DNA from: an uncultured Methylococcaceae bacterium
GTDB lineage: Bacteria; Pseudomonadota; Gammaproteobacteria; Methylococcales; Methylomonadaceae
Reading direction: 5' to 3'
DNA length: 33,002 nt
NCBI GenBank assembly: GCA_903905335.1
Contig: CAIVGC010000073.1
Coordinates: 1 to 33,002, forward strand
Shown here: positions 2,871-6,750 of the stretch, piece after piece
How the letters are laid out: each line of letters opens with the position of its first letter
Numbering within the stretch: the first letter of the stretch is position 1
Notes under the pieces: generated by a model
Seen by the model: the letters and a program-made list of their open reading frames with translations, nothing else
What the model was told of the DNA's origin: nothing
Database searches by the model: none
Program-made: the position numbers and the translations under genes

Positions 2871-3213
2871 GATTTATTATAACAATCGAATCTGCATTGG
2901 CAATATAGCTTTCGAAACGTGAGTAATAAGATTATCAATGTTCCCTAGGCTTCATACAAACTCAGCCAGGTAGACAGCTAGGGTGGGCAATGATTTTCTG
3001 CTCATCGCTCAATCGGCAAAGGGTGGGCAAACGATAAAACTATTTGCACACACTACATGACTGATGATGACCAAATTCAATTTGATCTTATGTGATTTGT
3101 AACGCTTAAAAATCTATTTTTATTCCCTTTCAATAAATTCAATTAGACATGATTTGTCGCAAGACTGACAGATAATATTCATGATTTAAAAATAAGAAAT
3201 AACAGTAAGAAAT

Positions 3214-3240
3214 AACAGGGACAACAGGGACAACAGGGAC
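3214..3240. repeat. Three tandem 9-bp units AACAGGGAC
   Basis: aacagggac|aacagggac|aacagggac, running into AGACCAC of direct repeat copy B. Confidence 0.95.
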
Positions 3241-3304
3241 AGACCACAGTTTATTCGCGGATACTAATATATGCTGGGTTGAATGAATACCCAATGTTAT
3301 AAAT
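3232..3304 (+). repeat. Direct repeat copy B flanking the rpn-like gene
   Basis: aacagggacagaccacagtttattcgcggatactaatatatgctgggttgaatgaatacccaatgttata aligns with 1929-1998. Confidence 0.75.
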
Positions 3305-3305
3305 T

Positions 3306-3411
3306 AACTCGTAAGATGTATGAATGTAAGGTCGATTCGCGCTAGCAATCCACCATTTCTGAGCTACGGTGCTGCATTGAGCTGGCGGTTTGCTGTCGCG
3401 AAACCGCCCTA
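3306..3411 (+). repeat. Dispersed palindromic repeat, intron-interrupted copy
   Basis: Matches 124-227 nearly base for base and stops at 'aaaccgcccta', exactly where GTGTG starts. Confidence 0.85.
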
Positions 3412-4055
3412 GTGTGCCCGGCATGGGCTAAAACTTGTTATCTGAAAGGAGATAACCGGAAGTAGTAACGACAACCGTAGCGAAACGCAAGGTGGAAGCC
3501 GTGAGGCCAAGCTGAAAGAAGCGCGTAGCAAAAGCACGACCGTAGGAACACGAACAAGCAGTGAGGGGGCGATGAGTGTGCTAGGGAACACGAAATCCAA
3601 CCGTTACCGAAAGACGCATCAGGTAGAGCTTGGCGGCACGGGCAGAAAGTTTTAGCACCTTACCCGGGGAGATCTTCGAAGCGAGAGCTTTGAAGAAGTC
3701 AGCAGAAGCCGTAGTAGCGAAGAAGCCTTGGAAACTTGGCAGAGCGAAGGGCTGAAGGAACCGAGATACGACGAAAAGACTTTCAAGCGAAGCGAGTAGT
3801 CATTTGAAACAGAAAGGAATGGCAACTTAGGCAACTTCCTGATTGGTAGTCATTGGAAACGCCTAGTGGATACAGGTCGAAGCCAAAGCTGCAAATGGCA
3901 AGCTAAACATTGAAGCGTCCAAATGTAAGATGTATCGACAGGGAGCAAAACCCTGAGCGGAAAAAAAACGTTGGTTCCAACCGCCGGATGCGGAAAACCG
4001 CATGTCCGGTGGTGTGGGAGGGATAACGGGCGCAATCCCGTTATCTCCACCCGAT
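3412..4055 (+). mobile_element. Group II intron-like element, ORF-less (no reverse transcriptase/maturase)
   Basis: 5' end GTGTGCCCGGCATGGG. Domain V-like hairpin CCGCCGGATGCGGAAAACCGCATGTCCGGTGG (~3980-4012). Domain VI-like stem GGGATAACGGG/CCCGTTATCTCC and 3' end ...CACCCGAT. Upstream CCCTA can pair with intron TAGGG (3582-3586). No RT-like ORF in any frame. Confidence 0.82.
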
Positions 4056-6088: not shown

Positions 6089-6174
6089 AGCTGAACAATA
6101 GTGTTAAGATTGACGTCGAATCGTTTTTTGAACTGTTGAGCGTTGATCACTATAATCAAGTAAGGAGACAACAG

Positions 6175-6750
6175 ATGCCCACTTGTTGGATTATCGCAGG
6201 ACCCAACGGAGCAGGAAAAACCACCTTTGCCCTGGAATATTTACCGACGGTAGCGGGTTGTAGGCGCTTTATAAATGCGGATTTGATTGCGGCGGGACTG
6301 TCACCGCTAGCACCGGAACAGCACTTATTAGTCGCCAGTCGCTTATTTCTACGTGAGCTTGAAGACTGTATTGCCGCGCGACAAGATTTTGCTTTTGAAA
6401 CCACGCTCTCGGGACGAAGTTACCTTAAACTGGTGGAGCGCTTACAAGCAACAGGCTGGCAGGTTGAATTGATTTATCTCGCGTTGCCCAGTGCCGACAT
6501 GTCGCGTCTGCGGGTGGCGGAACGCGTTAGCCACGGTGGACATCATATTGCAGAAGTCGATTTAATTCGTCGCTTTCCTCGTAGTTTGCATAACCTATTA
6601 AATGAGTTTGCTCCTAAGGTCAATCAGGTGCGCTGTTTTATGAATAATGATGATAAACCGGTGTTGATATTTCAACAAACAGGTGTTGTTCGTAGCGTTC
6701 TAAATCCTGATTTTTTTAATTTAATAACAAAAGGAAGTTTAGATGAGTGA
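6175..6750 (+). CDS. Zeta-toxin-like P-loop kinase
   Basis: 'MPTCWIIAGPNGAGKTTFALEYLP' Walker A near the N-terminus, plus 'FETTLSGRSYLKLVERLQATGWQVELIYLAL' and 'RVSHGGHHI'. RBS-like aaggaga precedes ATG at 6175. The track start at 6136 is probably too early. Confidence 0.82.
   Translation: MPTCWIIAGPNGAGKTTFALEYLPTVAGCRRFINADLIAAGLSPLAPEQHLLVASRLFLRELEDCIAARQDFAFETTLSGRSYLKLVERLQATGWQVELIYLALPSADMSRLRVAERVSHGGHHIAEVDLIRRFPRSLHNLLNEFAPKVNQVRCFMNNDDKPVLIFQQTGVVRSVLNPDFFNLITKGSLDE

Follow-up and report, generated by a model that had tools for sequence, protein, structure and literature searches.

A group IIC intron without a reverse transcriptase, from a Methylococcaceae lineage found behind hairpins and probably mobilised in trans

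The 33,002-nt stretch of DNA analysed here (the window, contig C73 of a 473-contig draft genome of 3.17 Mb, 94.6% complete) contains at 3412-4055 a group II intron that encodes no reverse transcriptase (RT). We propose that this intron belongs to a non-autonomous, ORF-less group IIC lineage of Methylococcaceae which is probably spliced and mobilised in trans by the RTs of its relatives and which inserts behind a hairpin followed by CCTA. The observations established below are the identity and ends of the intron, the absence of an RT remnant, the occurrence of the lineage in several species, covariation, co-change of EBS1 with IBS1, the hairpin targets and the coexistence of both kinds of intron in Methylobacter marinus.

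Identity, ends and domains of the intron

A sequence-only reading had placed a group II ribozyme with a domain V- and VI-like 3' part at 3412-4055 and had suggested a search with Infernal and Rfam. Three group II covariance models matched the region in order (cmscan, gathering thresholds), which bore out this assignment: RF02001 (group-II-D1D4-3) at 3495-3658 (70.0 bits, E = 3.2e-12), RF01998 (group-II-D1D4-1) at 3660-3752 (43.3 bits, above its gathering score) and RF00029 (Intron_gpII, DV-DVI) at 3979-4055 (42.9 bits with a gathering score of 40, E = 2.3e-5, model positions 1-77 of 77). The RF00029 match stops exactly at 4055, and both proposed ends were supported independently, as full-length relatives elsewhere align over the entire length (nt 1-644) and empty copies of the 5'-exon repeat read CCCTA/C where the window reads CCCTA/intron/C. 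The predicted fold into domains was likewise upheld, by the Rfam matches to DI-DIV and DV-DVI and by a comparative fold of six full-length copies in which 33 of 176 pairs, all domains together, show compensatory (double) changes. The features, all on the + strand, are as follows.

3412-4055, +: ORF-less group IIC intron, 644 nt (Rfam matches, full-length ORF-less relatives, RT remnant absent)
3326-3354, +: partner REP-like palindrome GTAAGGTCGATTCGCGCTAGCAATCCACC, inverted with respect to the target REP, a REPIN/BIME-like pair (pattern search)
3384-3411, +: 5' exon, REP-like stem-loop GGCGGTTTGCTGTCGCGAAACCGCC followed by CTA (genomic repeat, hairpin fold, EBS1 pairing)
3408-3411, +: IBS1, CCTA (pairing with EBS1)
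3417-3668, +: domain I (RF02001, comparative fold)
3566-3567, +: site of an 8-nt DI deletion peculiar to this copy; the 5' strand of a helix is lost, its 3' strand being 3601-3609 (alignment of six full-length copies)
3582-3585, +: EBS1, TAGG, within the arm 3576-3591, pairing with IBS1 CCTA (co-changes in L113 and L076)
3669-3700, +: domain II (RF01998, five compensatory pairs)
3707-3753, +: domain III (RF01998, comparative fold)
3757-3978, +: domain IV, ORF-less and structured, with a DIVa-like segment common to RT-encoding relatives (16 of 50 pairs compensatory, alignment)
3980-4013, +: domain V (RF00029; almost invariant among six ORF-less copies)
4015-4053, +: domain VI (RF00029, three compensatory pairs)
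4049, +: candidate branch-point A, assigned from its position
4056, +: first base of the 3' exon, C, candidate IBS3, completing the CTAC of the empty site, i.e. the GTAG foot (16 of 18 family members, empty sites)

The absence of an RT or maturase frame, which the sequence-only reading had also claimed, was corroborated. No stop-free stretch inside the intron exceeds 73 codons, and a relative's RT used as a tblastn query found nothing significant within it; the same query detects clear remnants in L073, a relative with partial RT loss. These results indicate that 3412-4055 is a genuine group II intron of complete length without a maturase, and its splicing is predicted from the sequence.

The alignment also revealed an 8-nt gap in DI of the window copy, where all five of its full-length ORF-less relatives have sequence. 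This deletion removes one strand of the helix below the EBS1 arm and may impair the intron. A second copy lies on contig C216, where nt 1-153 are matched with one mismatch before the contig ends inside the intron, an instance of repeats breaking the assembly. No cognate RT was found in the 473-contig draft by RVT_1, GIIM and RT-protein searches: the RVT_1 search returned one short fragment below the cut-off and the GIIM search one sub-threshold match, and an RT query had no match in the draft. A search of the genome for related RT-bearing introns had been suggested with the original reading; it gave no full RT in the host draft, and RT-encoding relatives were found in other genomes.

Relatives with and without a reverse transcriptase

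RT-encoding relatives of 1871-1874 nt have ends almost identical to those of the window intron and a DIV that codes for an RT of 416-429 aa matching TIGR04416 and Pfam RVT_1 and GIIM. When the RT of one relative (L074) was compared with solved structures, the best match was the GsI-IIC RT (6ar1, E = 4e-112), followed by 7uim (1.8e-86), with the non-IIC protein LtrA at 1.4e-32. Since the relatives' RT is closest to that of GsI-IIC, the family is assigned to group IIC, and the window ribozyme is by this kinship a group IIC intron. It also displays the IIC traits of a stem-loop in the place of IBS2 adjoining an IBS1 of 3-4 bp. A 26-nt probe of the intron 5' end, run against species-representative genomes, matched nearly all within Methylococcaceae (Methylobacter, Methylomonas, Crenothrix, Methylovulum and Methyloglobulus); outside the family it matched a few Nitrosomonas and one Bacteroidetes metagenome-assembled genome. 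The host is accordingly likely to be a methanotroph belonging to Methylococcaceae. In another genome of the same order (G079, 2.7 Mb), about 35 RT frames matched the IIC RT query, most with a 473-codon frame; this heavily expanded RT family probably represents group II introns.

With the window intron and, separately, its DIV alone as query, DNA searches found full-length ORF-less copies (643-654 nt) that share its DIV of about 220 nt in at least four further Methylococcaceae genomes (L113, the same as L186; L118 and L131, both of M. marinus A45; L129; L189). Truncated or decayed ORF-less copies were found in G003, G107, G121, G002 and G015. Because the 5' exons of the full-length relatives all differ from one another, these copies represent separate insertions. 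Compared from one species to another, cores are 87-93% identical and DIVs 54-84%. The DIV nonetheless covaries: 16 of its 50 pairs show a double change, and the number of double-change cells is 34, compared with 13.0 in shuffles and 1-6 with slid partners, although these counts reflect few independent events since there are six sequences and two are near-identical. The DIV of the ORF-less copies has a DIVa-like stretch and a GTGGAT motif in common with that of the RT-encoding relatives, and it lacks RT codons. RT-deletion products also exist among the relatives (L070, 692 nt; L071; L073; L077), and these retain RT codons, which distinguishes them from the ORF-less lineage. The concern that the window intron might be only an internal deletion product was thus not sustained, given a DIV that has homologues in other species and is free of RT remnants; to judge from these comparisons, the intron is not a random deletion product. 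In a core tree of modest support the ORF-less copies are not united in one clade, and it is therefore the shared DIV that argues for a single lineage. A shared DIV combined with mixed cores implies either that the ORF-less copies recombined with RT-encoding introns or that they arose more than once.

Both kinds of intron reside together in M. marinus A45. Of the RT copies in this genome, one is intact (421-codon frame) and two have broken frames; the genome also contains two full ORF-less copies, which are 98.8% alike, and deletion forms. The cores of its ORF-less and RT-type introns are about 92% identical, and the EBS1 of its ORF-less copies is TAGG. The ORF-less Mmar2 and the RT-type IEPb follow the same 5'-exon hairpin, GTGCGAATGAATTCGCACCTA. 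The combination of several ORF-less copies and an RT-encoding relative was thus seen in M. marinus A45 but not in the draft genome of the window. The two partners and their common hairpin provide the strongest indirect evidence, at the level of sequence, for an RT acting in trans. Against it stands G115, a one-contig genome with an ORF-less copy, where the only RTs are of 35-41% identity.

The target hairpins

The insertion sites share a DNA hairpin and a short IBS1. In 39 of 57 distinct 5' exons the insertion is preceded, at a distance of 1-5 nt, by a perfect stem of 6 bp or more, compared with 11.6% of shuffles, and the most frequent distance from stem to insertion is exactly 3 nt. IBS1 reads CCTA in 33 of the 57 and is complementary to the EBS1 TAGG. 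The two elements change together, to TAGC/GCTA in L113 and TGTT/GACA in L076. The first base of the 3' exon is C in 16 of 18 family members, and TTTT occurs within the first 10 nt of three of these 18 3' exons.

In the host genome the hairpin is a dispersed repeat. A pattern search detected a GTAG-footed palindrome 38 times and the reversed-pattern control not once. The intron interrupts two of the 38 (on C73 and C216), in each case between G and TAG (G^TAG). Many copies are arranged as inverted pairs, and some pairs enclose a terminator-like spacer. At 123-228 the window itself contains a second pair, near-identical to the 5' flank of the intron but intron-free, ending CCCTA/CGACTTACGG. Contig C328 encodes a REP-associated tyrosine transposase (NF047646, 204 bits), and the GTAG palindromes that flank it are unlike the target family in sequence. 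Since a GTAG-footed palindrome is dispersed in 38 copies and a REP-associated transposase is present in the genome, the host-genome targets are, by these sequence features, REP-like. The spacing of the palindromes, which recur at intervals of about 1 kb, prompted an integron/attC reading of the repeats; judged on the repeat sequences, it was tentatively set aside because the attC consensus is missing and the GTAG foot is present.

Group IIC introns are known to insert behind terminators and attC sites (PMC4424553, PMC7923331), and the hairpins could accordingly be intrinsic terminators or integron attC sites receiving ordinary IIC insertions. The terminator-like spacer within some host pairs is compatible with this explanation. 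We nevertheless consider it unlikely, as IBS1 is CCTA rather than TTGT and the insertion CCTA/C rather than TTGT/T, a T run is rare in the 3' exons, and the host target is the dispersed GTAG-footed palindrome.

Action in trans and its alternatives

The intron RNA is predicted to keep DI-DIII, DV and DVI, with DIV reduced to a structured module of about 220 nt that includes a DIVa-like segment. A group IIC RT/maturase from a related intron would bind this ORF-less RNA and aid its splicing, and the borrowed RT would carry the intron to new sites by reverse splicing and reverse transcription. Pairing of EBS1 (TAGG) with a CCTA that immediately follows a DNA stem-loop would select the site. In the host genome that stem-loop would be the REP-like palindrome, and insertion would fall within the complement of its GTAG foot. 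We infer the action of an RT in trans, the formation of a lariat and current mobility from these comparisons. Weighing against the proposal are the failure to find a cognate RT in the host draft, the distant RTs of G115, the DI deletion of the window copy and the scatter of the ORF-less copies in the core tree. More tentatively, the lineage may be SINE-like and self-sustaining, having lost its RT before several methanotroph genera diverged, and may have evolved its own structured DIV, survive in one species after another on IIC RTs borrowed from co-resident introns, home on REP-like palindromes and split their GTAG foot; this is a possibility that we entertain but do not yet favour.

The sequence-only reading had regarded an ORF-less copy as either degenerate or acted upon in trans. 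At the level of the family, the conserved ORF-less copies at different sites in several species, the covariation and the coexistence with an RT-encoding intron in M. marinus speak for the second, and partial degeneration of this particular copy is also possible given its DI deletion and the failure to find a cognate RT in the draft. We take seriously, while leaning somewhat against it, the explanation that the window copy is a dead relic, formerly mobilised in trans and now non-splicing, with its DI damaged and its RT partner gone. The deleted helix strand that the other five full-length copies keep, the lack of a detected RT in the host draft and the fossils of the lineage in G002 and G015 all speak for it, but DV, DVI, EBS1 and the splice sites are intact, the EBS1 arm is still predicted to form its local fold, and the second copy on C216 agrees over nt 1-153 but for one mismatch. 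C.te.I1 of Clostridium tetani is a splicing-only intron that needs no RT. The window intron could be self-sufficient in the same manner, considering its compact and conserved DI-DVI core and the absence of a close RT among those found in its own genome and G115. This appears improbable, however, because insertion sites that differ from species to species, and the two near-identical copies of M. marinus, imply that the intron moves, for which an RT is required, and because the DIVa-like RT-binding segment is seemingly kept. Least probable by far is that an RT-encoding intron simply lost its RT frame by deletion in place, or that such an intron was collapsed in the assembly. Products of this type exist, both as L070, L071, L073 and L077 and on contig C27 of the same genome, but they keep RT codons whereas the window DIV has none, and the window DIV is homologous to those of other species, with covariation. 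This explanation was rejected on the basis of the DIV homology and the absence of RT codons.

Mobilisation of ORF-less introns in trans has a precedent in Thermosynechococcus elongatus, where it was shown experimentally that ORF-less TeI3 introns are mobilised by the RTs of TeI4 "drivers" (PMC2882425). The likeness lies in ORF-less introns and an RT acting in trans, which is experimental there and inferred here. TeI3 was described in one genome and keeps recognisable N- and C-terminal ORF remnants, whereas the methanotroph lineage is group IIC, occurs in several species, has a covarying DIV without ORF remnants and sits behind DNA hairpins. It resembles the bacterial class C introns GsI-IIC and B.h.I1 in the IIC-type RT of its relatives, a short EBS1 and a hairpin immediately upstream of IBS1 that replaces IBS2; it differs from them in that the window copy has no RT and in that the REP-like hairpins end about 3 nt before the insertion with CCTA, instead of being terminators or attC sites with TTGT. 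Like the group IIC-attC introns (PMC7923331) it is inserted at a folded palindromic repeat used by another mobile system, although the element that it targets here is REP-like and the genome encodes a REP-associated transposase. In Pseudomonas putida KT2440, two of nine group II introns were listed as REP-associated by a 2006 survey (PMC1525189), whereas the present case concerns an intron family, a fixed position at the hairpin foot and an ORF-less lineage. Trans-mobilised ORF-less introns being already known from T. elongatus, what would be new is a multi-species IIC lineage behind REP-like hairpins. We found no report of a methanotroph ORF-less lineage in the literature searched, which covered few subscription journals. 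If our proposal is correct, this lineage would join T. elongatus as a second natural system in which RTs act in trans, a step that figures in models of how the spliceosome arose. Since M. marinus A45 has both an intact RT copy and two full-length ORF-less copies, trans action could be tested within one cultured strain.

Several minor observations concern the host genome. Contig C267 (L015) contains at 225-740 an RT fragment with the motif RYVDDFILVHED, just under the RVT_1 cut-off. On C27 (L010), a further group II intron has its end at 3052-3317 (RF00029, 63 bits); the start and end of an RT are apparently fused in it, indicating an internal deletion of the RT frame. A plasmid origin, for which only two weak Burkholderia matches were obtained, was rejected. 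Near the intron the window encodes PemK-like, PIN-domain and Zeta-toxin-like proteins (331-681, 1184-1579 and 6136-6750), and 1998-2870 is a PD-(D/E)XK family transposase. Contig C354 (L013) contains at 2300-2343 a palindrome of two facing group II intron 3' ends, with arms of 19 nt and a loop of 6; it is flanked on one side by a 3' exon like that of the window and on the other by CGACTTACGG, the usual REP continuation, and may have arisen as a chimera, by rearrangement or from an insertion that was aborted.
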